Assembly (NCBI GenBank): GCA_037783545.1
Contig: JBBELK010000992.1
Span: 992,001-1,056,000 of the forward strand
From: Henricia sp. BOLD:AAB3569
Taxonomy: Eukaryota; Echinodermata; Asteroidea; Spinulosida; Echinasteridae
Length of the DNA: 64,000 nucleotides
Reading direction: 5' to 3'
Shown here in pieces: positions 4,401 to 64,000 of this stretch. Below the pieces are notes generated by a model. The model saw only the letters and a program-made list of their open reading frames with translations. It was not told the DNA's origin and ran no database searches. How positions within the stretch are numbered: position 1 is the first letter of the stretch; each line of letters starts with the position of its first letter. The position numbers and the translations under genes are program-made.

Positions 4401-7400
4401 ATGAATCTGTGCTTTCCATGCCGAGTCCGGTTGCTTTGTACGTTGTGTCGCTATTTTTTTGCGATGGCTTGTGAGCACATAGCAACAATATCTAAGGGGC
4501 GTTTTAACTGGGCAATCTCGGAACTACATGTATGCATTATTGGCATCAAGCGGCACTAAATGTCCATGTAGTGATGCCGGGAATTATCAGGGGCTAAATA
4601 CTGTTGCAGAAGTCAAGTGTTTTGGCTTCGAAATTGCTAGGTAATTTCTGGAATCGGCTATCATATCTAGATGAAAGAGGATCGATTCCTACTGGAATCG
4701 CGATTCCGATTCTCAAAGTGGGATCTCATCTACTCGACTTTGGCATGGAATCGCCAAAGCCTGGTACCTGGACTTCCTCATAAAAAAGATATTTAAACAA
4801 ACTAAGGTTCTCTTTTGATGACTGTTTTTCAGATGACCATGGCCCGGCCGAAGAGTGCAGAGCATTTGGTAGTCTAGTACTCCTCTTCAGCGAACTGATT
4901 CGTTGTGATGTCTTCTCCCACGATGCGTACATGTGCACATTGATCTCTCGCGGTGACCTGACGACCAGTCCGCCGCCCCCAGTCAACAGTGAACCACCAC
5001 CATCCAGAGAGAAGTTAGAGGCCGAGCAAGAGAAGGCAACATCACTTGATATAAAGCAGGAGGTTGGTAAAAAATAGCATGTGCTAAATTTAAACGTAAA
5101 TGTCTTGCTACGCTCGCTTGTGGCAGTTTCAAACATAAACATGCAGACGAGGTGTTTTTTTACTCACTTTCGTGTGCAAAGAAATGTTTGGTGTTTACAT
5201 GTATACATGGCAAGAGACACAGAGTTTCTTGGAAGTCGTGACGCATGAAAAAAGTCTATATAACCCTTTTGCAGCAGCTTCTAACATTGGGCAGTATTTG
5301 ATAGTGCCATATCATATACATAATTATAAGTCAGAGTGCCTTTCTCACTGGTTCATTGAAAATATCAAAACTACCCCCAGGCTGTGCATTATCCAACTCA
5401 TTTCACATGGTTTGGTCACGTATTTACTTTTAAACTCTTCTAGAATGGTTTTTTTTTTTCAGCCCAAGGATGTAGAAGATGTTGAAATTAAGCAAGAACA
5501 AGAACAGGCAGACTATGAAGACTCTGATGAAGATAATAAACCAACAACTCTCCAGAAGAAAGAATCCGTCTCATTCCAGGAGAAGTTCCTGGAGGCCATC
5601 CAGTCCAACAAACTCAGTGCTGAGACCGAGTTTTTCGAAGAGGAAAAGGACAATCTAAAGAAGGGTTTGCGTGACTCCACCACGCCGTCGCCGCACCAAC
5701 TTAAACCCAAACCAAACCGACATCTCATGTATGCCACGCACTTCCCAATCCCGCAAGATGAGATGTCGACCCACGAATGTAATCAGCGCCTTGTGCTTCT
5801 GTACGGATTTGGCAAAGCTCGCGATGAGGCACGGCACGCCGTGAAACGCATCCAGAAGGAAACTCTACGGGCTCTCGGAAGCAAAAAGGACACGCCGGGG
5901 AAAACGGACGTCAAATCCAAGCATAAATCCGATGGGCAGCCTCCCATGAATTTCGAACACCTCCTTGAACGGTACAGAACATTATCGTACTTCGATCAGC
6001 ACATGGTCACTGCTGCGTGTGCGTCACACACCCTGGAGCAAGTCCAAAGCTGTACGCAGGGATCCGTGGACAACTTACCCTCTGTCGAACAAATCACGCT
6101 TGTGTTTGAGTTGATGGAAACTGCGCTCAACATACATGCTCTGTTGGACTTCTCTGTGCAGTTACTCAACTACATGAGTATCTTAGAATCGGAGCTTGCT
6201 AAGATGTCTTCACCGCTTGTTGGGAACTATACTCCCAACCTGTGCTTGTCCATTGTGGCTGTACTCAGGAGATACCAGGCTTGTTTGCTTGTATCGCAGG
6301 AACAAACGGCCACTGTCTTTGAATTGTAAGTTTAGTTGCAGTTGCCACACTTGAAAAAATATCTTACTTTTAATTCCTTGCTCTTGGCCCAAAACTACAT
6401 GTAACGTAATTTGACACACAGTGATTTTAGCCTTTTGTATGTTTCACAGGAATAGCATCTGTTGTAGGGGAGCATTGGGTTAGTTAAAACAGTTTTAACA
6501 TTTTGTTTTCCTAAAACGAGTATTCAGTTTTGTTACTGTGCGTTCGAATGTGTTTGAATTAGGTCGATCATTTTGCGAGTTTGATGTATGGAATTTTAAC
6601 AGAGAGCACCCTATTTGCGCGTCGATCAGCGACACACAACGGTTGCACCATTCAAATTTGTTTATAGGCTCCTGCCCATTTTAAACTATAGGAGCTGAAT
6701 TTCATCATGATGTGCTTCTTTTTCCAAATTAAACAAGAGCATCTCCATTTGAAAGTAAAGAATTCATGGCGCCAGCCATAGTGCATCAGTTACACACAAA
6801 AGGCTAATTAATCTGTCACACATTAAATAACCGTCCTTTTGGGAAGTCACTTGAATCCACACTTTCTACATTAATCAAAGATGGTGTAATTTGCATCTGT
6901 ATATGAATTTCAGTTGGGAATGACTAGCTTTTCCAGATGCAAATTTTCAGCACTGTCTGCTCAGTGCATGTCCTGAGATGTTTGCTAAAAAGCACACAAC
7001 ATGCTCGGATAGGACTTGAACCCATGATCTTTTGTACCTTTTGAATATCACTGAATAGAAAATACTTTGCCTAATCCTTTGTTGTTTTTATCATTTTTCA
7101 GGTTGTGTGGTGTCGTGAAGCATGTGACCAATGTTACGGTGTGTTCCTCCGCAGAGCGATGCATTTTGGCATATCTCTATGATCTTTATACGTCCTGCAG
7201 CCACGTCAAGGTAATCATAAAATGTTTTAGTACATTTTATGATGTACTAAATGGTTATTTGCTGATTTGCATAATGGCAAATTAAAACCTACCATACTTG
7301 AAGGTTTTTGCGCAACAGTATTTTGACAGGAGAAACGGCCGATACCAAAGTTTTAATGTGTAGCGCACCAAATGCATTTTTATAACCTGCATTAGAAACA

Positions 7401-40400: not shown

Positions 40401-43400
40401 TATCTCGAAAATCAGAAATGTTCACAGATTTACGCCTAACTTACACAATATTAACATGATGACCGTAGTAAACTTCCCCTGAACTGGTTTTGTCTGAAGT
40501 GCTATAGCCTTTGCGAAATGAGACGAAAATTCAATTCGCCCCAAAACCATTTCGCCCCTAAACCACTTCGCCCGAGTGCCATTTCGCCCCAAATCACTTC
40601 GTCCAAACTCTACATCGCCCAAATGCCACTTCGCCCTAAAACCACTTCGTGCACAGGCCGCAGTTCAGGGCGAAGTGGTTTTGGGGCGAAATGACTGCAA
40701 ACCCTTTTTTGACTGTTTTCTGAAACGTTAGACGAAGTACAGAGCTGGTTTTTGCTCAGGTTGGTTTTAATCACGCATATCTTCAATCACACAGGTGGAT
40801 AAAACTATTTGTAACAGTTTACCAATCATGTATACTATCTTTAACCTAAACCTCAATTTATTGAGAATTACAAAAGTTCTAAAATAATTAAAATTAACAC
40901 CACCCACTTGGTTTAGATTAACTTAACAGATCTCTTACACTAACACGATCTGTAACAGGAACTGTTGAACTAACATGAGATGTACATGTAACACTAACAC
41001 GTCATAAACACCGTGTTAACATCAAGTTAACACGGTGTTTGTTCTGAGGTCACAATTCTGATTAAGTTAACAGATCTGTTAACTCGTAACACAGAATTGT
41101 AACACAGAATTGTGACTTCGCCTTGTATACAGTGTAGAGAATTAATATGGTGTTAACAGATCTGTTAACACGGTGTTAACCTGGACATCCAATTAGAGGT
41201 TGAGATTAATGCCCTGTTAACAGATCTGTTAAACTAACATGTAACACACACAGAACTGTGACCTCACCCATTGTGAAACAAGTTAAACACATTGTTGCTA
41301 AACGGAGTAAAAAAATATGACACTGAAGTTTTGTCTAAAAACTGGGCAAAGAATTACATTTTTTCGTACAATTTTTGTGTGTATGTACATGATTGCCATA
41401 GCAAATATGGAAAGTCTCAAGTGCAAACATTCCAGGAATGCTCGGACATAGTAACGGTGTACATAATATATGAAAAGGGTCTGCTGTCAGTAATGTACAT
41501 GTGACTTCAAATGACAAGCTTTTCATTGCTCCATGTGTGAACACACTGTGGATCAGATCTAACTGGCTTACACCGTATTTACACTGGTCCCGAGCTCGGG
41601 ATCAAGATGGATCCCCTGATAAGAATGCGTCAGTGTTAACCGCAATGATCCTGAGTGCTGCGTTTACATTCTATAGTTGATCTCGAGCGCGGTGCCAGAA
41701 GTTGCAGTCAAAGGTCATGTTCTATGTGTGTATGTAAATGTACCGATCAATGTGTGCATGGGTTGTGTATGTATACGTACAGTGTACAAGGCCACTTGAA
41801 CTTCGCGGGCTTTTCCCCCGCTACGGCTGTGGAGCGGATGCGGCAGGATGTGGTAAAGATTAATTGCTTATCTAACTGCAAACTGATCCCGAGCTCGGGA
41901 TCGAACCCTCCGCCAACGCGAGACCAAAATCTCGGGGTCTGATCCCGAGCCAATTTGGTTTGTGATCCTGTGCTAATGCCGAGCTCAGTGTTCGACCCCG
42001 AGCTCGGTGTTCGACCCCGAGCTCGGTGTTCGACCCCGAGCTCGGTGTTCGACCCCGAGCTCGGTGTTCGACCCCGAGCTCGGTGTTAGACCCCGAGCTC
42101 GGTGTTCGACCCCGAGCTCGGGGTCTAACACCGAGCTCGGTGTTCGACCCCGAGCTCAGTGTTAGACCCCGAGCTCGGTGTTCGACCCCGAGCTCGGTGT
42201 TCGACCCCGAGCTCGGGATCAAGTGTAAACAGGGTGATAATATTACTTGCAGGATTGAATCCTCCACTGTATAATCATGTGTGAATGCTGTGAGTAGATA
42301 TGATTATTGTGTGCATGCATTGCATGATGAGAAGTGTAACATTTCTTTCATTGGCCCATTCAGTACTTTACTTTTACTTATTATTTTAATTTACAAGTTT
42401 TCTTTTAACATTTACTAAATACATGTAGTTCCCTATTATGTTCCCCATGCATGTTGTTTACATGTAGTTGTTCTGTATGACAAGGTTTATCTTTAAGCTG
42501 AAGTGGGTCTTTCCACAGTAAAGGGGGCATTTTGGCAACACAGACCATATTTTTGAGGAAATACCTCTGTCTGGTCTCAAAATAAAAGAAATAAGTTTCA
42601 GTTGTTCTGAAGAGATAACTTAGGCCCAAAAAGGGTCACGCGCGTTATATTGGAAATTTGTACACAGGATTTTTAAAAAGGCATGTTGTTGCACTATTTG
42701 TAACCCTTTTGGGGCCTAAGTTATCTCTTCAGAACAACAAACTTATTTTGAGACCAGACAAAGGTATTTTCTGGAAAATATGGTCCGTGTTGCCAAAATG
42801 CCCCCTTTACCGTGTAAAGACTCAAATTGGTATTTTGTTGATGAACAAAATGCAAAAGCCATCTCTACCTGTGGACTACGTCTTGTTGAATATACATTAT
42901 CCTCATCGAAAGTTACTAAAACAGTTTAATTTTGGGTCTATTTTTTATGCAAGTTTGCCCCAAAACAAGGCTAAAGCTACATGAAGAAATAAAAAGAACG
43001 AAATAGCTCAAGAAGACTGAACAATCAGGATAATAGGATGGAGGGAAACATGCGCCAGCTATAGACTGTGTACGAAGGGATTCCTACTGAATCAACAAAC
43101 AAAATAATGCTGTCACAACTTTATAAATTAAATTGATTAAATTGTAGTGAGAACTTCTTAACCCGTAACTTTTTTATGTGTATAGTTACCATACAAATGT
43201 GTACCTTTCACAGTCAATAAAGGGCAATTTCATGTGTCAAACCTCATAACTGTAAGAACCTTCTAAACAAAATACCTGAATGAATATATGCCTTTTTGGA
43301 ATTCAGTTGCTTGTGTCAAGGCAAAAGTATAAACTGACATCAAGATTGAATTTTGTTGTTTAGTTGCAGCTTAACACAGTAAATACACACACTGGAGGTT

Positions 43401-48892: not shown

Positions 48893-49096
48893 ATCATCAT
48901 TGGAGTGGACCCGCCAACATGGCGCCTGGCCAACCCATGCAGCAACAACCTCCACCCCAGTACAATCCCTATCAACAGCAGTATTGAATCATCATTGGAG
49001 TGGACCCACCAACATGGCGCCCGGCCAACCCATGCAACAACAACCTCCACCCCAGTAGAATCCCTATCAACAGCAGTATTGAACCATCATTGGAGT
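48812..49096 (+). repeat. 95-bp tandem triplication across the MED12 stop codon
   Basis: Three abutting 95-bp units, from GGACCC to ATTGGAGT. Unit 1 contains the last coding bases and the TGA. Unit 2 differs from unit 1 at one position and unit 3 from unit 2 at five, including TAC to TAG inside the former coding text. Because 95 is not a multiple of three, the extra copies are out of frame with the real exon and lie in the 3' UTR. Confidence 0.95.
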
Positions 49097-52944: not shown

Positions 52945-54322
52945 AAAATGAAGCTTTGTTTTGGAAGATTTCTGCGAGATTTTTGTCAGTTTGGTGTTGA
53001 AAACTTCAGTTTACAACTGAATATGCTTTTGTTATTGTTGTACAGTATTTTTGTTTTACTGTACACAAGCACAATCTATTCACTTGATAAACGACGCACG
53101 CGTATCAGAAACGCACGGTATCCGCAAAAGCATCATTTTATTTATTACAAGGCCTACATAGTAGGATATTAAATCATTCAAGCAAAATAATTTAGAATTT
53201 ACTTTTTTTCAGGAGGAAGGGGGTAATTTGTCCTGGTGGTTTGGTTAGACATGTACCACCTTGGCGGTGTATAACTAAACACGTGTCTACTTTTTCTTCC
53301 ACTGAAATATAAAATAAAGTGATGCCTACACAGTCCTGTCCATTTGAGTCAATGACTCATTAAAACCCTGCCTGTGGCACCACCTTGACAAACATGCTAT
53401 GATCTCCTGCCGAGATAGAATATATGTATTGAATATCATTAACAATGACTACAATTTTATTGCAGACAACTTAAATGCCCTATAGATGATCTATTTTGAG
53501 CGATTCTGGAAACAAAACCATTTCAGACTGCACAGATGTGAGCTTCTAAGTAAATTGTTTGCAAACGATCTAAATAAATTTAATCTTAACTTTCTGGTAA
53601 AATTATCATCTCGGGCGGAAACATTTCATTGGATAGCTGCTACCAATTCAATCTTTACTTTGAGGAAGGTTTCCCTGTCAACTCGTTGATTAACATTTTG
53701 GGTCATTGTAAATGATACAGTGGGCCTTTAAATTTTTGGTTGAGGAATGTTCAAGTAAAATGTTTGATGAGGGAGTGTTGCAATTATTAAACAAAAATCA
53801 AAACATGATTTAAAATGCACAGGATGTGTGTTGCTGTTCGAAGTAACAAATCCCATGCACGCTACTCTAGAAACGTTAACAAATATCCCTGATCACCTTT
53901 TTCTTCCGAACAACGAAGACAATTTACAAAAAATGTATTACATGATTAGACCATGCATGATTCGTTATGTTCTGTTCTCTCTCGTGTGCTCTTCTAATTC
54001 ACCACGGTCTCTTGTCCCTTTGACACTGTAACGTAAAACAAAAATAACATGGTATTTGGTAACATTGCTGTCAAAATAGATCAGTCTAAATCTTAAAAAC
54101 ACCAAGTGTGACCAGATTTTTCAAAAAAATAGATTTTGTTCTAACAATCATACAAAATACCTCCCCAAAATACTATCCATGAGAAGACAACAGAAAATTG
54201 GCAATCCCCAATTTGGATGTGGAAGCAAAAAGGTTGGTATAATCACTGCACTGCTTTTTATCTTCAAGCAAACTTGAATCCGTGGTTCTGATTGCTGGAT
54301 CCATGGCAACAACAGTGTGACA

Positions 54323-55178: not shown

Positions 55179-55485
55179 TAATTAACGTATTAACCTGATA
55201 AATCAGTTACTAAAGGTTGATATAAACACTGCAGCACACTAAAAAAGAGTGCTAGAATTATTAATCAATGTTGTCGTTTTTTTAATGTTTTTCCCTCTGT
55301 CTGATAATACAAAAGTACATACTAAAGTTTGATGTCAGTTGCCATAATAACTGGTTTTAACATTCGCTGGTAATCTGAAATGTCCATTGCTAAAGCGCAT
55401 GGAAACAGTTCACTGTATACCAGTAACCTTGGCAACACACACAGAGGACAATATTTTCGCTTTAGTGTTCTATTTCCTACTGGAT

Positions 55486-58400
55486 TTAACAAAGAGAATC
55501 AGCTAAACCATGAACATATGTATACTTACAGCAGGCCACAAATGCTACGTTAGCCGTGCAAGCAGCATGCTTCCATCTGTAATTGTCTTTTTGACTGTAA
55601 AAATTGAAAGGGAAAGAAGTTTTATGGTTAAAAATGACCCCAATTTGAGCACTGCGACAATCTATTTGGTGCGAAACTGGACGCTGAATAAAATCAGCAT
55701 TCAATTTTTTTTTTATAAGTGTGCATTTTTACTCTTGCATCATGCGATTGAGTGAAAGTCACTGTCCATTTTAACAGTCCCATCGATCGGCATTTAAAAC
55801 ACACCATTATTTGAATTCATCAATTGGCAGACATTTGTCGAATTAGTGCGGTCAAATTGTGGGTTGATTAAAGTTTTTGATATTATCAATACGTATTAAT
55901 GCAAATAGTGCCACAAATTCATGAAAAATAAAGGTCAATGCTGTATGTGGATATTATGAAAAATTGGTCCTGCTGACATTAAGAAATATGATAAATAAAG
56001 CATGTGCAGATATGCAGAAGATGGTTGTCTTTAGATGAAAATGACGATGTTTGTTAAAATTGTCAAAAATGGACGTCGTGCTAAATTGGATGACGATTTC
56101 GCAGTAGTAAACTGACACTGCGCTAAACTGAATGTCATGTTAAATCAATTCTTCAGTACAAAACTTAAATTGAATGCTTTATTTTGCAATTCTGTATTCA
56201 CTTTCTGCAGGAGACTGAAATATGGAGGCATACAGATAAAAGATTAGCCTGATTAATCCATTTGGTAAGGATGTTTGTCAAAAGCTTGCGTGAAAATTGT
56301 TCACAATCGTGATCCGTATTGCAAAAATGAGTCTGGGCCGTGTTTTGGCGGTTGTAACCAGAAATATGTTTCTGACATAATCGCTGATTCAACCAAAGAT
56401 CACCATTGGTCAGATTCGTAAAATGTCAGGTACATGTTTCTGGTTATGTATGTGAAAACTTGTGACAGCGAGTCACAATTTAAGAAATGTCACATGAACT
56501 ATTTTACCTCATGATCAAGCAGTCTCCTTGGCCCTTATCATCAGCCCACCAGGTCTGAGTTACCGGAGTTCCATCATACCATGTCTTCTCATCCTTAGAC
56601 AAACGTCCGATCCAGATGTCACCTGAAAAATACAAAAAATGGTAGGATAGTCAAGTTAATCAATGAGAGAAAAATAAATCATATAGTCGTCATCAAGATT
56701 TGAACCCGAGACCTCTAACACACACTGGGCAGAAGGTGCTCTACCAGGGACCAATTTCATAGCACAGACTTTATTTGCTTTACTTTTTTAAACTAGGTTG
56801 CCAGCCACAGTTGTGTGTGATGTGTATATATTTACTGGTATTCTGCTACTGTTTCTAAGAACATAGTTTGACATACAATTTTGCTAGGAAAATGCAACCT
56901 ATTTCATCAAAGTAAAGCAAATAAATGTTGTGCTTAGCAGTGGCTATTAAATTGGCCCCGGCCTGCTGACCTATGAGGCACTGTGGTATAACTCCCTCAG
57001 GTTTCTTCATTTTTCTCTCTCAGAGTATTGCATGGGTGTGCAAAACATAAATTGAAGGAACACTTTTTGTCAGGCACCATACATAATTAGCTTCAACGAT
57101 AGTTTAGACTACTTCCATTATAATCCTCTCGAATAGACCCGAGTCGTATCCAAAAGATTTGTGGGTGGTGTCGAAAACATTTCATGAAGTAAGGGAATTA
57201 TTGCATTAAATCCTACAGTGTTAAATGGATGTACAGTAAGTGGCCATATACGATGCGGTATGCACTATGCTTTTCCCGTGAATATGCTAAAATTTCATAG
57301 CGTACTCGACTGGAATCTCCTGTATGCTAGGCAGAGGCCTTAACAACTCGAACTGGTCGGTGTTAAATGGAAGGTACAATGTTTTTACAGGTGGCGACTG
57401 CAATTACATGAAAGGGGAATTATTGCATAAACATTTCATTCATAAATACCTTAGACAGTTTACGCATTCCTATTGGCTGAAAACACATCACGTGGGCAAT
57501 TTTTAAGGAGCGATAAAGGCACAGTCAGTCTTAAACACTATTAAGCCTGGCTAGCGGCCGCGCCCGCGCTTTGGTCGGTGTATATATATGGAACACACAC
57601 TCCCGAATACAAATTGTGCACTGTGACAAGTACCCAGTCATGTGGGTGCGCGTACAACATGCTTGCATTACACGTAATGCGCACGATCGAACAAAAACAT
57701 ATCGACGCACAGCTAGCAGTTGTACGAACGTGGTGTTGCATGACACTCTAGGAAAGTGAATGCAAAACGACGAGCTAATTTTGGTGAGTTTTACCTTTTA
57801 CGCAAAAAGGTATTTATGAATGGGATTAAATGTAGGTTTGGTCAGTTTACCCTAAGTTAAAATACAACAGGGCAACAGATAACATAAATAGTCTCATTAT
57901 CAATATATACACATGACACTATCACAAAAGGCTTAAACTGAGACCAACAAACAAGAATTGGGTTTGTAACTCTATAACACTGTCAGACAGCAACTGGAAT
58001 ATCTTCACTCTATATACAAGTTTGACAACAACTGTTTTGACAGGAAAAGAACTTTGATTTCCAGTACAAGGTGGAGTATTTAAGACTTTGAAATGTCTTC
58101 AAGTAAACTTACCTTGGTCTTCCCCGAAGCTTTCTGCTATCCAGTTCTGGATCATACTTTCAGACACGACAGCAAGAGCCATCTGTTCAGCTTTGCATGC
58201 AGCAACAGCATCTGCATATGGCCCGTCCAGGCTTTGGAACATCAATGATACCTCCTGTTCAATAGTCTCCTCAATCGTTGAGTAAGACTCCTCAGATGTC
58301 TGCCCGTCGTCCGATGACTGATCTTGATTGGAAGATCCAGACTCGCTCGACTCATGGGTGCTGGTAGAGTGCTCATCTGAAGCAACTTTCGTTGTGCCTT

Positions 58401-61400
58401 TCTTTTCCTCTCCGTTGTTTTTAGTTACCTTTGAACCTTGATCTCTGGAGACAGACTTCTTGCTCTTGGATTTCCGGACCTTCTTGCTATTTGATCTCTG
58501 AGATGTTCGATCTCTAGAGACAGACTTTGACCTTTTCTTTTTTAATTTCTTGCTCTTGGATTTCCGGACTTTCTTGTTCTTTGATCTTGAAGAACTTTGA
58601 TCTCTGGAGACAGTCTTTGACTTTCTCTCTTTAGATTTCCTGGTCTTTTTGCCCTTGGGTTTCCGGACCTTCTTGCTCTTTGATCTTGAAGAACTTTGAT
58701 CTCTGGAGACGGTCTTTGACTTTCTCTCTTTAGATTTCCTGGTCTTTTTGCCCTTGGATTTTCGGACCTTCTTGCTCTTTGATCTTGAAGAACTTTGATC
58801 TCTGGAGACAGTCTTTGACTTTCTCTCTTTAGATTTCCTAGTCTTTTTGCCCTTGGATTTCCGGACTTTCTTGTTCTTTGATCTTGAAGAACTTTGATCT
58901 CTGGAAAAGGTCTTTGACTTTCTCTCTTTAGATTTCCTGGTCTTTTTGCCCTTGGATTTCCGGACCTTCTTGCTCTTTGATCTTGAAGAACTTTGATCTC
59001 TGGAGACGGTCTTTGACTTTCTCTCTTTAGATTTCCTGGTCTTTTTGCCCTTGGATTTCCGGACCTTCTTGCTCTTTGATCTTGAAGAACTTTGATCTCT
59101 GGAGACGGTCTTTGACTTTCTCTTTTTAGATTTCATGGTCTTTTTGCCCTTGGATTTCCGGACCTTCTTGCTCTTTGATCTTGAAGAACTTTGATCTCTG
59201 GAGACGGTCTTTGACTTTCTCTCTTTAGATTTCCTGATCTTTTTGCCCTTGGATTTCCGGACCTTCTTGCCCTTGGATTTCCGGACCTTCTTGCTCTTTG
59301 ATCTTGAAGAACTTTGATCTCTGGAGACGGTCTTTGACTTTCTCTCTTTAGATTTCCTGGTCTTTTTGCCCTTGGATTTCCGGACCTTCTTGCCCTTGGA
59401 TTTCCGGACCTTCTTGCTCTTTGATCTTGAAGAACTTTGATCTCTGGAGACGGTCTTTGACTTTTTCTCTTTAGATTTCCTGGTCTTTTTGCCCTTGGAT
59501 TTCTGGACCTTCTTGCCCTTGGATTTCCGGACCTTCTTGCTCTTTGATCTTGAAGAACTTTGATCTCTGGAGACGGTCTTTGACTTTCTTTCTTTAGATT
59601 TCCTGGTCTTTTTGCCCTTGGATTTCCGGACCTTCTTGCTCTTTGATCTTGAAGAACTTTGATCTCTGGAGACGGTCTTTGACTTTCTCTTTTTAGATTT
59701 CCTGGTCTTTTTGCCCTTGGATTTCCGGACCTTCTTGCTCTTTGATCTTGAAGAACTTTGATCTCTGGAGACGGTCTTTGACTTTCTCTCTTTAGATTTC
59801 CTGGTCTTTTTGCCCTTGGATTTCCGGACCTTCTTGCTCTTTGATCTTGAAGAACTTTGATCTCTGGAGACGGTCTTTGACTTTCTCTGTTTAGATTTCC
59901 TAGTCTTTTTGCCCTTGGATTTCCGGACCTTCTTGCCCTTGGATTTCCGGAACTTCTTGCTCTTTGATCTTGAAGAACTTTGATCTCTGGAGACGGTCTT
60001 TGACTTTCTCTCTTTAGATTTCCTGGTCTTTTTGCCCTTGGATTTCCGGACCTTCTTGCTCTTTGATCTTGAAGAACTTTGATCTCTGGAGACGGTCTTT
60101 GACTTTCTCGTTTTATATTTCCTGGTCTTTTTGCCCTTGGATTTCCGGACCTTCTTGCTCTTTGATCTTGAAGAACTTTGATCTCTGGAGACGGTCTTTG
60201 ACTTTCTCTCTTTAGATTTCCTGGTCTTTTTGCCCTTGGATTTCCGGACCTTCTTGCCCTTGGATTTCCGGACCTTCTTGCTCTTTGATCTTGAAGAACT
60301 TTGATCTCTGGAGACGGTCTTTGACTTTCTCTGTTTAGATTTCCTAGTCTTTTTGCCCTTGGATTTCCGGACCTTCTTGCTCTTTGATCTTGAAGAACTT
60401 TGATCTCTGGAGACGGTCTTCGACTTTCTCGTTTTAGATTTCCTGATCTTTTTGCCCTTGGATTTCCGGACCTTCTTGCCCTTGGATTTCCGGACTTTCT
60501 TGCTCTTTGATCTTGAAGAACTTTGATCTCTGGAGACGGTCTTTGACTTTCTCTCTTTAGATTTCCTGGTCTTTTTGCCCTTGGATTTCCGGACCTTCTT
60601 GCTCTTTGATCTTGAAGAACTTTGATCTCTGGAGACGGTCTTTGACTTTCTCTCTTTAGATTTCCTGGTCTTTTTGCCCTTGGATTTCCGGACCTTCTTG
60701 CTCTTTGATCTTGAAGAACTTTGATCTCTGGAGACGGTCTTTGACTTTCTCTCTTTAGATTTCCTGGTCTTTTTGCCCTTGGATTTCCGGACCTTCTTGC
60801 TCTTTGATCTTGAAGAACTTTGATTTCTGGAGACGGTCTTTGACTTTCTCTCTTTAGATTTCCTAGTCTTTTTGCCCTTGGATTTCCGGACCTTCTTGCT
60901 CTTTGATCTTGAAGAACTTTGATCTCTGGAGACGGTCTTTGACTTTCTCGTTTTAGATTTCCTGGTCTTTTTGCCCTTGGATTTCCCGACCTTCTTGCCC
61001 TTGGATTTCCGGACCTTCTTGCTCTTTGATCTTGAAGAACTTTGATCTCTGGAGACGGTCTTTGACTTTCTCTCTTTAGATTTCCTGGTCTTTTTGCCCT
61101 TGGATTTCCGGACCTTCTTGCTCTTTGATCTTGAAGAACTTTGATCTCTGGAGACGGTCTTTGACTTTCTTATTTTAGATTTCCTGGTCTTTGGGCCCTT
61201 GGGTTTCCGGACCTTCTTGCTCTTTGATCTTGAAGAACTTTGATCTCTGGAAAAGGTCTTTGACTTTCTCTCTTTAGATTTCCTGGTCTTTTTGCCCTTG
61301 GATTTCCGGACCTTCTTGCTCTTTGATCTTGAAGAACTTTGATCTCTGGAGACGGTCTTTGACTTTCTCTCTTTAGATTTCCTGGTCTTTTTGCCCTTGG

Positions 61401-64000
61401 ATTTCCGGACCTTCTTGCTCTTTGATCTTGAAGAACTTTGATCTCTGGAGACGGTCTTTGACTTTCTCTCTTTAGATTTCCTGGTCTTTTTGCCCTTGGA
61501 TTTCCGGACCTTCTTGCTCTTTGATCTTGAAGAACCCTGATCTCTGGAGACGGTCTTTGACTTTCTCTGTTTAGATTTCCTGGTCTTTTTGCCCTTGGAT
61601 TTCCGGACCTTCTTGCTCTTTGATCTTGAAGAACTTTGATCTCTGGAGACGGTCTTTGACTTTCTCTCTTTAGATTTCCTGGTCTTTTTGCCCTTGGATT
61701 TCCGGACCTTCTTGCTCTTTGATTTTGAAGAACTTTGATCTCTGGAGACGGTCTTTGACTTTCTCTGTTTAGATTTCCTAGTCTTTTTGCCCTTGGATTT
61801 CCGGAACTTCTTGCTCTTTGATCTTAAAGAACTTTGATCTCTGGAGACGGTCTTTGACTTTCTCGTTTTAGATTTCCTGGTCTTCTTGCCCTTGGATTTC
61901 CGGACCTTCTTGCTCTTTGATCTCGAAGAACTTTGATCTCTGGAGACGGTCTTTGACTTTCTCTCTTTAGATTTCCTGGTCTTTTTGCCCTTGGATTTCC
62001 GGACCTTCTTGCTCTTTGATCTTGAAGAACTTTGATCTCTGGAGACGGTCTTTGACTTTCTCTTTTTAGATTTCCTGGTCTTTTTGCCCTTGGGTTTCCG
62101 GACCTTCTTGCTCTTTGATCTTGAAGAACTTTGATCTCTGGAGACGGTCTTTGACTTTCTCTCTTTAGATTTCCTGGTCTTTTTGCCCTTGGATTTCCGG
62201 ACCTTCTTGCTCTTTGATCTTGAAGAACTTTGATCTCTGGAGCCGGTCTTTGACTTTCTTTTTTTAGATTTCCTGGTCTTTTTACCCTTGGATTTCCTGA
62301 CCTTCTTGCTCTTTGATCTTGAAGAACTTTGATCTCTGGAGACGGTCTTTGACTTTCTTTTTTTAGATTTCCTGGTCGTTTTGCCCTTGGATTTCCGGAC
62401 CTTCTTGCTCTTTGATCTCGAAGAACTTTGATCTCTGGAGACGGTGTTTGACTTTCTCTTTTTAGATTTCCTGGTCTTTTTGCCCTTGGATTTCCGGACC
62501 TTCTTGCTCTTTGATCTTGAAGAACTTTGATCTCTGGAGACGGTCTTTGACATTCTCTTTTTAGATTTACTGGTCTTTTTGCCCTTGGATTTCCGGACCT
62601 TCTTGCTCTTTGATCTTGAAGAACTTTGATCTCTGGAGACGGTCTTTGACTTTCTCTGTTTAGATTTCCTGGTCTTTTTGCCCTTGGATTTCCGGACCTT
62701 CTTGCTCTTTGATCTTGAAGAACTTTGATCTCTGGAGACGGTCTTTGACTTTCTCTTTTTAGATTTCCTGGTCTTTTTGCCCTTGGATTTCCTGACCTTC
62801 TTGCTCTTTGATCTTGAAGAACTTTGATCTCTGGAGACGGTCTTTGACTTTCTTTTTTTAGATTTCCTGGTCGTTTTGCCCTTGGATTTCCGGACCTTCT
62901 TGCTCTTTGATCTCGAAGAACTTTGATCTCTGGAGACGGTGTTTGACTTTCTCTTTTTAGATTTCCTGGTCTTTTTGCCCTTGGATTTCCGGACCTTCTT
63001 GCTCTTTGATCTTGAAGAACTTTGATCTCTGGAGACGGTCTTTGACTTTCTCTTTTTAGATTTACTGGTCTTTTTGCCCTTGGATTTCCGGACCTTCTTG
63101 CTCTTTGATCTTGAAGAACTTTGATCTCTGGAGACGGTCTTTGACTTTCTCTGTTTAGATTTCCTGGTCTTTTTGCCCTTGGATTTCCGGACCTTCTTGC
63201 TCTTTGATCTTGAAGAACTTTGATCTCTGGAGACGGTCTTTGACTTTCTCTTTTTAGATTTCCTGGTCTTTTTGCCCTTGGATTTCCGGACCTTCTTGCT
63301 CTTTGATCTTGAAGAACTTTGATCTCTGGAGACGGTCTTTGACTTTCTCTTTTTAGATTTCCTGGTCTTTTTGACCTTGGATTTCCGGACCTTCTTGCTC
63401 TTTGATCTTGAAGAACTTTGATCTCTGGAGACGGTCTTTGACTTTCTCTTTTTAGATTTCCTGGTCTTTTTGCCTTTCGATTTCCGGACCTTCTTGCTCT
63501 TTGATCTTGAAGAACTTTGATCTCTGGAGACGGTCTTTGACTTTCTCTTTTTAGATTTCCTGGTCTTTTTGCCCTTGGATTTCCGGACCTTCTTGCTCTT
63601 TGATCTTGAAGAACTTTGATCTCTGGAGACGGTCTTTGACTTTCTCTTTTTAGATTTCCTGGTCTTTTTGCCCTTGGATTTCCGGACCTTCTTGCTCTTT
63701 GATCTTGAAGAACTTTGATCTCTGGAGACGGTCTTTGACTTTCTCTCTTTAGATTTCCTGGTCGTTTTGCCCTTGGATTTCCGGACCTTCTTGCTCTTTG
63801 ATCTTGAAGAACTTTGATCTCTGGAGACGGTCTTTGACTTTCTCTTTTTAGATTTCCTGGTCTTTTTGCCCTTGGATTTCCTGACCTTCTTGCTCTTTGA
63901 TCTGGAAGAACTTTGATCTCTGGAGACGGTCTTTGAATTGCTCTTTTTAGATTTCCTGGTCTTTTTGCCCTTGGATTTCCGGACCTTCTTGCTCTTTGAT
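55486..64000 (-). CDS. Lys/Ser/Arg-repeat protein with C-terminal C-type lectin-like domain (partial, 3' end of gene)
   Basis: Three minus-strand exons are visible. The first (58113 to beyond 64000) encodes a huge polycationic array of 33-residue repeats, then an acidic Ser/Glu/Asp linker, then the first half of a C-type lectin-like domain (CTLD). Exons at 56508-56622 and 55530-55594 complete the CTLD. The join gives AVAACKAEQMALAVVSES, then DIWIGRL, W-Y-D-G-T-P-V-T, GDCLIM, and RWKHAACTANVAFVAC: the WIG core and four conserved cysteines in canonical order. The EPN/QPD and WND calcium-sugar motifs are absent. CTLDs are normally extracellular, so a signal peptide is expected upstream of the window. 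The combination of CTLD and repetitive low-complexity sequence recalls echinoderm spicule-matrix proteins, but the repeat chemistry and order differ. Function unknown; a matrix, mucus or adhesive role is only a guess. Confidence 0.75.
55530..55594 (-). CDS. CTLD exon 3 of the repeat-lectin gene (end uncertain)
   Basis: Minus-strand acceptor TTTACAG|T at 55594, phase 2 in. It encodes SQKDNYRWKHAACTANVAFV followed by A-C, giving the last two CTLD cysteines. A perfect donor (TGCT|GTAAGT) follows 55530, implying another exon at lower coordinates that I could not find. If it is not used, the frame reads on (CKYTYVHGLADSL) to TAA at 55486-55488. Confidence 0.78.
55595..56507. other. Intron of the repeat-lectin gene
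   Basis: AT-rich; no repeat or exon recognised. Confidence 0.5.
56508..56622 (-). CDS. CTLD exon 2 of the repeat-lectin gene
   Basis: Minus-strand acceptor TTTTTCAG|GTGAC (exon starts at 56622) and donor ATGAG|GTAAAA after 56508; phase 1 in, phase 2 out. It encodes GDIWIGRLSKDEKTWYDGTP, VTQTWWADD and GQGDCLIM: the CTLD WIG core, the W-x-DG turn and the third conserved cysteine. The frame joins both neighbouring exons without a stop. Confidence 0.85.
56696..56745 (-). mobile_element. tRNA-like SINE head (minus strand)
   Basis: On the minus strand GGTAGAGCACCTTCTGCCCA (A box) and GGTCTCGGGTTCAAATC (B box) are spaced as in a tRNA, but no closed acceptor stem was found. It abuts a MITE at 56748. 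Confidence 0.55.
56748..56958. mobile_element. GGCCAATTTCAT MITE family, second copy
   Basis: Ends GGACCAATTTCATAGCAC / GTGGCTATTAAATTGGCCC, with internal GCAAATAAATGTTGTGCTTAGC-like text matching 35200-35435. Lies in the intron of the repeat-lectin gene. Confidence 0.75.
57437..57845. mobile_element. MITE family 'ATTCATAAATACC', copy 2
   Basis: Starts CATTCATAAATACCTTAGAC and ends AAAAAGGTATTTATGAATGG plus GATTAAATGTAGGTTTGG. The interior shares GGCTGAAAACACATCACGTG-like and GATCGAACAAAAACA-like text with the reverse of 9690-10075. Confidence 0.78.
58113..64000 (-). CDS. Giant repeat exon: Lys/Ser/Arg array, acidic linker, CTLD first half
   Basis: Open on the minus strand from the right window edge to the donor CCAAG|GTAAGT at 58113/58112 (phase 1); reading through would stop at 58099. 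From 64000 to about 58433 it encodes a repeat whose parts are KSKTVSRDQSSSRSKSKK and VRKSKGKKTRKSKER. From about 58432 to 58247 lies an acidic/Ser linker (HESSESGSSNQDQSSDDGQ). From about 58246 the CTLD begins. The only methionine in the visible array (62553) is a point change within a repeat, so it is not a credible start; the true start is outside the window. Confidence 0.85.
58433..64000 (-). repeat. 99-bp coding minisatellite (33-aa unit), about 55-60 copies
   Basis: Near-identical 99-bp units fill the region, with a few substitutions per unit. A minority carry an extra 24 bp (eight residues, a second KVRKSKGK block), giving 123-bp units, for example near 59250-59285, 59380-59405, 59505-59530, 59925-59950, 60235-60260, 60470-60490 and 60985-61010. 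All changes keep the frame open, which argues for purifying selection or gene conversion at the protein level. The array runs off the right edge. Units nearest the linker (58433-58620) are the most diverged. Confidence 0.97.

Follow-up and report, generated by a model that had tools for sequence, protein, structure and literature searches.

Mlig-ap1 of the flatworm Macrostomum lignano is described, in the parts of the published account consulted, as a secreted cohesive glue protein of 5,407 residues, in which more than 3,600 KR-rich residues with a pI above 14 are combined with a C-type lectin-like domain (CTLD) (PMC6410801). Its KR regions lie at both ends, it has one CTLD, a vWD-C8-TIL core and 17 EGF modules, and heparin hinders attachment while added cationic molecules hinder release (PMC6410801). 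In other flatworms, the GRK-rich part forms a separate protein, ap3 (PMC9229212). Among echinoderms, the sea star protein Sfp1 and sea urchin nectin both contain discoidin domains, and both are linked to adhesive secretions (PMC7037938). The locus described here, from the sea star Henricia sp. BOLD:AAB3569, lies at the end of a stretch of 64,000 nucleotides of contig JBBELK010000992.1 (the window) and continues into the upstream sequence. It encodes a very long Lys/Ser/Arg polycation (array 2) followed by a CTLD (CTLD10). The analysis suggests that both form the tail of one predicted giant gene, in which array 2 would be an enlarged linker between CTLD9 and CTLD10. Mlig-ap1 is the nearest described analogue found, by composition.

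Coordinates follow the axis of the window, so that numbers above 64000 lie outside it, and the giant gene is on the minus strand. The features of its predicted 3' part, together with the second array upstream, are as follows.

58450 to 64000, minus strand: in-window part of array 2, from the open reading frame, tandem-repeat and anchor counts; the full predicted exon is 65741-58113
58252 to 58449, minus strand: acidic Ser-rich linker, in the same exon as the array and the start of CTLD10, from the gene model and the sequence
58113 to 58251, minus strand: first part of CTLD10, sharing its exon with the array and the linker, with donor GTAAGT in phase 1
56508 to 56622, minus strand: middle exon of CTLD10, 115 nt, entered in phase 1 and left in phase 2
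55530 to 55594, minus strand: last exon of CTLD10, if the GTAAGT donor after 55530 is used
55486 to 55529, minus strand: alternative 3' end, reading through to the TAA at 55486-55488
55281 to 55286, minus strand: ATTAAA, resembling a polyadenylation signal, about 200 bp downstream of the stop at 55486
137494 to 140061, minus strand, outside the window: array 1, 98 heptads in the first exon of the third F5/8C domain

An open reading frame runs on the minus strand from the window edge to 58099, through 1,966 codons without a stop. Tandem Repeats Finder reports a tandem array at 58456-64000 with a 297-bp period and a score of 8,680; within it, the longest stretch of 99-bp period covers 60980-64000 (score 5,643). 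The motif SR[DN][QR] anchors the unit and occurs 55 times in the window, with 45 of the 54 intervals being 33 residues long, seven 41, one 30 and one 23. In the predicted repeat exon (65741-58113, 7,629 nt), which begins at a TTTTCAG acceptor, the whole array has 71 unit anchors, or 72 when the divergent last one is counted, and the 71 intervals measure 33 (62), 41 (7), 30 (1) and 23 (1) residues. The seven 41-residue units consist of the 33-residue unit type plus an extra block of eight residues. The array comprises 2,430 residues, 34.5% of them Lys and 14.5% Arg, with a net charge of +1,092. Its frame contains no stop in 2,542 codons, whereas the two remaining forward frames contain 9 and 91. 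Non-coding satellite DNA is rejected because of this stop-free frame and the exon that the array shares with the first part of CTLD10, and a dispersed repeat because of the confinement to the giant-gene locus of all 40 matches of a genome-wide query with the array.

Between array 2 and CTLD10 lies the acidic Ser-rich linker of 66 residues, with a net charge of -10 and three S-x-E matches. The exon borders of CTLD10 carry GT/AG sites (donor after 58113, exon 56622-56508, acceptor at 55594), and its best matches in the PDB are the PLA2 receptor, the yolk-sac IgY receptor and DEC-205. The initial annotation, made from the letters of the window, had described a repeat exon of more than 5.9 kb with 55-60 copies of a unit, an acidic Ser-rich linker and a four-cysteine CTLD spread over three exons; this description agrees with the exon, the anchor counts, the linker and the four cysteines found here. 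The comparison of the joined CTLD with Pfam Lectin_C that it had proposed gave an E-value of 8.5e-9 and 36.6 bits, above the cutoff of 22.6. Its view of array and CTLD as the whole architecture is not supported, as the predicted gene has 52 exons upstream of the repeat exon, ten CTLDs, nine F5/8C domains and a second array.

For the upstream part, 140 kb were analysed, of which 2 kb overlap the window end, within an assembly of 740.7 Mb. The predicted gene has 55 exons over about 105 kb, with 18,496 nt and 6,165 codons free of stops, and its product would be some 6,165 residues long, or a little longer. The predicted order begins with a signal peptide, a Cys-rich stretch, an F5/8C (discoidin) domain, an F-type-lectin-like domain, another F5/8C domain and the 98-heptad array 1, followed by four F5/8C domains, four CTLDs, three F5/8C domains, five CTLDs, array 2 and CTLD10 (the F5/8C domains are numbered FA58C-1 to FA58C-9). 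The exon that precedes the array exon, 66906-66836, encodes the last third of another CTLD, and its end phase matches the one needed by the array exon. A scan with CTLD exon profiles yielded 28 pieces on the minus strand (ten from first exons, nine from middle exons and nine from last exons), 25 of them at an E-value of 4.4e-4 or better; the two remaining exons of CTLD7 were supplied by splice-site enumeration. The corresponding F5/8C scan, of the minus strand only, gave nine first halves, all with E-values no higher than 2.9e-18, and nine second halves, five of the latter at 0.002-0.63. The space between CTLD4 and CTLD5 holds three of the F5/8C domains, and the F-type-lectin-like domain consists of four further exons. 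At the 5' end, a scan of 175000-154800 (20 kb) for start exons found two candidates, the signal-peptide-like exon MASQQLLLCLALVLNGALSQA at 160820-160739 and one in the wrong phase.

The exons of the CTLDs follow the phases 1-2-1 and those of the F5/8C domains 1-0-1, so that the modules have phase 1 at both ends and their duplication would leave the frame intact. Among CTLD exons, the donor with the best score is in the family phase in 28 of 28 cases and the acceptor with the best score in 25 of 27; among F5/8C exons, the figures are 17 of 18 and 16 of 18; the array exon was set aside from the acceptor count, as the scan stopped short of its start. FA58C-4 and FA58C-5 (135083-132617 and 130719-128763, minus strand) are nearly identical and apparently represent a recent tandem duplication.

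Pfam searches were made with seven model segments in addition to that of CTLD10, and the E-values and cutoffs apply to whole segments. Lectin_C matches the CTLD1-4 segment in four stretches (9.2e-65) and the CTLD5-9 segment in five (1.6e-55), and it also matches CTLD8 and CTLD9 when each is tested singly. The F5/8C family matches the segments of FA58C-1 (7.8e-30), FA58C-2 (3e-13), FA58C-3 (2e-7), FA58C-4 to FA58C-6 (4.4e-30, three stretches) and FA58C-7 to FA58C-9 (4.6e-34, three stretches), while the F-type-like segment matches PF22633 (3.5e-14). The model thus contains 20 extracellular-type domains, including the ten CTLDs, all of which have the four cysteines, and the nine F5/8C domains.

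Several observations weigh against this reconstruction. The CTLD profiles started from 15 exons picked out by eye at the same locus, and the F5/8C profiles likewise from exons of that locus. Three CTLD last exons (at 111214, 108329 and 82086) score at chance level (0.68, 0.78 and 1.6), to be compared with 0.97 for the best plus-strand match and 1.4 for an unused minus-strand match at 88875, and one F5/8C second half stands at 0.63 against 0.40 for an unused match elsewhere. These weak pieces were kept because of their position and phase, and are backed by the later Pfam matches of the joined segments. As exons were picked partly by phase, the phase consistency is partly built in and supports the model rather than proving it. 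In six places the model leaves the best-scoring site unused: the acceptors of the second exon of FA58C-1, of FA58C-3, of the first and third exons of CTLD3 and of CTLD7 are not the best-scoring ones, and the donor of FA58C-9 is a non-consensus GTTTTA (score -7.4). The small first exon of FA58C-2 scores only 0.8 and was obtained after lowering thresholds. At the 3' end, the stop at 55486 could be real, given the ATTAAA about 200 bp downstream, or it could be intronic, given that the GTAAGT donor at 55530 matches the splice position of the third exons of the other CTLDs; seven candidate terminal exons have an acceptor score of at least 4, none of which was settled as the terminal exon, and by eye none of the seven holds an obvious membrane segment. 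Of the 43 substitution types in array 2, 15 are synonymous, where 11.2 would be expected (P = 0.11, or 0.10 without codon 27), an excess that is not significant, and for this reason no claim of codon-level selection is made; in the 52 in-window units alone, 15 of 39 types are synonymous against 9.8 expected, with no stops against 2.1.

Alternatively, the model may have wrongly chained two or more genes, such as separate ones for the F5/8C domains, for the CTLDs and for the repeat with its CTLD. Introns of up to about 5.7 kb, the poor FA58C-9 donor, a hydrophobic ATG-start exon candidate at 100491 and the omission of 154800-142000 and of everything below 89617 from the start-exon scan would all suit such a split. 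Against it, the scan, with strict thresholds and for phase 1 only, found no candidate in 142000-123140 and a single one in 105065-89617, between FA58C-7 and FA58C-8; the F5/8C and CTLD blocks interleave, and exon 66906-66836 fits the array exon in phase. Chaining of separate genes is considered improbable, and a single giant gene, which would be read as a single transcript, is preferred.

An 85-bp stretch, present at 54167-54250 in the window and at 101504-101588 with 87% identity, was considered as a common terminal exon and rejected, as it recurs elsewhere in the upstream sequence. It is probably a mobile element, because similar copies recur elsewhere in the sequence examined.

Array 1 consists of 98 heptads of the type GDKP[E/G/K/V]PS, with E in 53, G in 38, K in 6 and V in 1, and it amounts to 692 residues with a net charge of -49. 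Its common variation, as tabulated, affects codon 5 and the third base of codons 4, 6 and 7. A query with array 1 gave 26 matches (150 of 457 candidates scored), 15 in the array exon, two in FA58C-4 and FA58C-5, and nine on other contigs that are only 38-44% identical. Close copies of either array elsewhere in the 740-Mb genome were not seen, with the same share of candidates scored for array 1, and no relative was confirmed among 2 and 174 pattern matches in viral contigs. Queries with CTLD10, which has one match elsewhere (E 0.02), and with CTLD8, for which the top matches from other contigs are single-exon CTLDs of 34% identity, revealed no giant paralogue in the genome; the predicted product thus appears to be without a close one. 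Since both arrays begin the first exon of a domain, at the place where other domains have short linkers, they are read as expanded linkers.

Secretion of the product is suggested by the signal-peptide-like start, the lack of a membrane segment in the model and the 20 extracellular-type modules. In the predicted chain, the hydropathy over 19 residues has its maximum of 1.84 in the signal peptide and the next value, 1.34, in FA58C-2, and no transmembrane segment is recognised by this measure. Among motifs with generally known meanings, furin-like matches occur before CTLD5 (RSRRRRS) and once in FA58C-3, and two N-glycosylation sequons lie outside the arrays, while the predicted chain contains neither RGD nor a GDPH/GPDH self-cleavage site. 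The Lys/Ser/Arg composition of array 2 would also suit an SR-like or chromatin-binding nuclear protein with an erroneous CTLD join, as it resembles that of SR and sperm nuclear basic proteins. SR nuclear proteins have an RNA-recognition motif (RRM) and no signal peptide. No RRM was matched by Pfam in the model segments or the CTLD10 segment, the first part of CTLD10 lies inside the same uninterrupted exon as the array, and the model has a signal-peptide-like exon and 20 extracellular-type domains. An SR-type protein is rejected on these last three grounds and a nuclear role is very improbable, in line with the earlier preference for secretion. The likeness to silaffins, which are phosphorylated, polyamine-modified Lys/Ser repeat proteins in silica, is one of composition only.

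Ca2+-dependent sugar binding by C-type lectins relies on the motif set EPN or QPD together with WND. None of the ten CTLDs combines EPN or QPD with WND: QPD is found in CTLD4 only, with WHD, CTLD8 has EPS with WHD, CTLD1 has WND without EPN or QPD, and CTLD10 has none of these. As the canonical motifs are missing, lectin activity of most of the CTLDs is doubtful. This bears on a possible role as a secreted immune-trapping or clotting molecule, whose modules would recognise microbes while the polycation would bind anionic surfaces and nucleic acids, causing agglutination in coelomic fluid or mucus. The combination of F5/8C, F-type-like and C-type domains generally suits recognition, a charge of +1,092 suits anionic microbial surfaces, and the lectin repertoire of the genome is expanded, with at least 150 Lectin_C matches scored of 695 candidates. 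Apart from the missing motifs, no close paralogue was seen, unlike in a variable immune cluster. Immune trapping ranks next after the adhesive or matrix role favoured below, and is unlikely.

A skeletal matrix protein, analogous to the spicule-matrix proteins with other repeats, has also been weighed. In sea urchins, spicule-matrix proteins such as SM50 and SM30 have, according to the portions of the sources consulted, a single CTLD followed by a disordered repeat rich in M, A, P, Q, G and N (PMC5460417, PMC6771980). The Henricia product shares with them a CTLD joined to a long disordered repeat, but it has ten CTLDs, its arrays precede their domains, and array 2 is rich in Lys, Ser and Arg and stands before CTLD10, a distinction already drawn in the initial annotation. 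For the sea star Patiria miniata, the skeletal proteome as reported in the consulted text contains no C-type lectin at the standard threshold, and two low-probability, single-peptide C-type lectins when the threshold is lowered; the genome has C-type lectins, none with urchin-like repeats (PMC5460417). This comparison involves a different species, and repeat queries of that kind would miss Lys/Ser/Arg repeats. A biomineral role is accordingly held to be rather improbable, about as much so as the chaining of separate genes.

Of the roles weighed, a secreted, cohesive adhesive or extracellular-matrix scaffold is favoured, at about an even chance. Like Mlig-ap1, the predicted product is giant and predicted to be secreted, and it joins a very long Lys/Arg-rich region to a CTLD in one chain. 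Unlike in Mlig-ap1, as compared by description and not by sequence, the array lies between CTLDs and the model has ten CTLDs and nine F5/8C domains. Membership of the Mlig-ap1 family fails because the vWD-C8-TIL-EGF core was not found: vWD, C8, TIL and EGF have no Pfam match at E of 0.1 or below in the seven model segments, nor at 1 or below in the CTLD10 segment. Cohesive glue proteins usually have these four domains, so the lack of matches also counts against the adhesive reading. The earlier statement that no described family has this order and composition calls for a qualification, since Mlig-ap1 combines a Lys/Arg-rich sequence with a CTLD in a secreted adhesive, although in a different order.

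Sfp1 is likewise a large multi-domain protein with discoidin domains, for which discoidin and C-type lectin domains are tabulated (PMC7037938). The C-type lectin domain of Sfp1 is uncertain, since the footprint catalogue of Asterias rubens gives a D-galactose-binding lectin domain instead and, in its main text, uses neither 'C-type lectin' nor 'lysine' even once (PMC9382459), a silence that does not favour an adhesive role for the Henricia product. Unlike Sfp1, the giant model is without vWD, C8 or EGF domains or a GDPH/GPDH site, and no polycationic array is mentioned for Sfp1 in the text consulted. Nectin shares several F5/8C domains in a secreted echinoderm protein; it has six of them and a mass of 108 kDa, with no CTLD or array mentioned in the same source (PMC7037938). 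No sea star protein with a comparable architecture was found in the literature searched, mostly by titles and abstract openings. The tandem CTLDs, ten in the model, recall the mannose receptor, PLA2R and DEC-205 family. Members of the mannose receptor/PLA2R family have N-terminal ricin-type and FN2 domains and a transmembrane segment. In the giant model no such segment was found, and Pfam matched neither ricin-type nor FN2 domains in its segments.

Around the giant gene, the window also holds the gene for MED12 (5139-6326 and 48476-48892, plus strand), convergent with the giant gene; its first large frame matches PF12145 (E 7.6e-13), and its Gln-rich 3' end was assigned by eye. Three copies of a 95-bp unit at 48812-49096 extend over the end of MED12, including the stop codon, and a 19-bp unit forms a tandem array of 12.5 copies at 41979-42216. 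No Rfam match and no tRNA were found in the window. Just upstream of the giant gene, Pro-rich repetitive open frames of the SPKPS/AQPEA type occur on the plus strand at about 163017-164300. Elsewhere in the genome, the scored Lectin_C matches (at least 150 of 695 candidates) lie on contigs C346, C84, C994, C259 and others, and many are single open frames of about 170-190 residues in clusters, forming a large CTLD family.

The mitochondrial contig C2104 (16,221 bp) carries COX1, and contig C955 has three COX1 copies 16,221 bp apart, a seeming mitochondrial concatemer that is probably an assembly artefact. COX1 is stop-free under the echinoderm code, as well as under tables 5, 13, 14, 21 and 24, and has an AAA codon at the conserved Asn of DDQIYNV, as in the echinoderm code. 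Next after cox1 come nad4L and cox2, while nad2 and nad1 lie on the opposite strand (genes besides COX1 by eye); urchins differ from sea stars in the strand of nad1 and nad2. The order and strands seen here are reported for a sea star, and the minus strand is said to carry nad1, nad2 and nad6 in every sea star published by then, according to the portion of the source consulted (PMC6262923). Code and gene order together indicate an echinoderm, probably a sea star.

For the favoured adhesive or matrix scaffold, the following origin and mode of action may be envisaged. Phase-1 modules would have multiplied, the F5/8C domains mostly with two exons and the CTLDs with three, and in two places the linker that opens the first exon of a domain would have expanded into a tandem array, in one case the anionic-to-neutral, Pro-rich GDKP[E/G/K]PS heptads and in the other the huge Lys/Ser/Arg polycation. 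The F5/8C, F-type-like and some of the C-type domains might bind glycans or other matrix proteins, and the disordered polycation might attach by reversible electrostatic contacts to surfaces and to anionic glycans, sulfated ones among them, in the way proposed for Mlig-ap1. More tentatively, and with somewhat less than an even chance, the protein could be a self-coacervating polymer of sea star glue or matrix, in which a polycation of about +1,092, an anionic array and about 20 modules are held in one chain, so that the solution of Mlig-ap1 would have been reached independently with different modules. The authors of the Mlig-ap1 study report that tryptic proteomics is difficult on such sequence (PMC6410801), which makes genome reading a useful route to proteins with arrays of this type.

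If the model is right, Henricia has a very large echinoderm secreted lectin-domain protein with two oppositely charged arrays in one chain. The locus would then be a clear case of long arrays arising as linker expansions inside phase-symmetric domain exons. It would also extend the polycation-plus-CTLD design of flatworm glue to a second phylum and suggest that the chemistry of reversible adhesion under water, or of matrix cohesion, is convergent.

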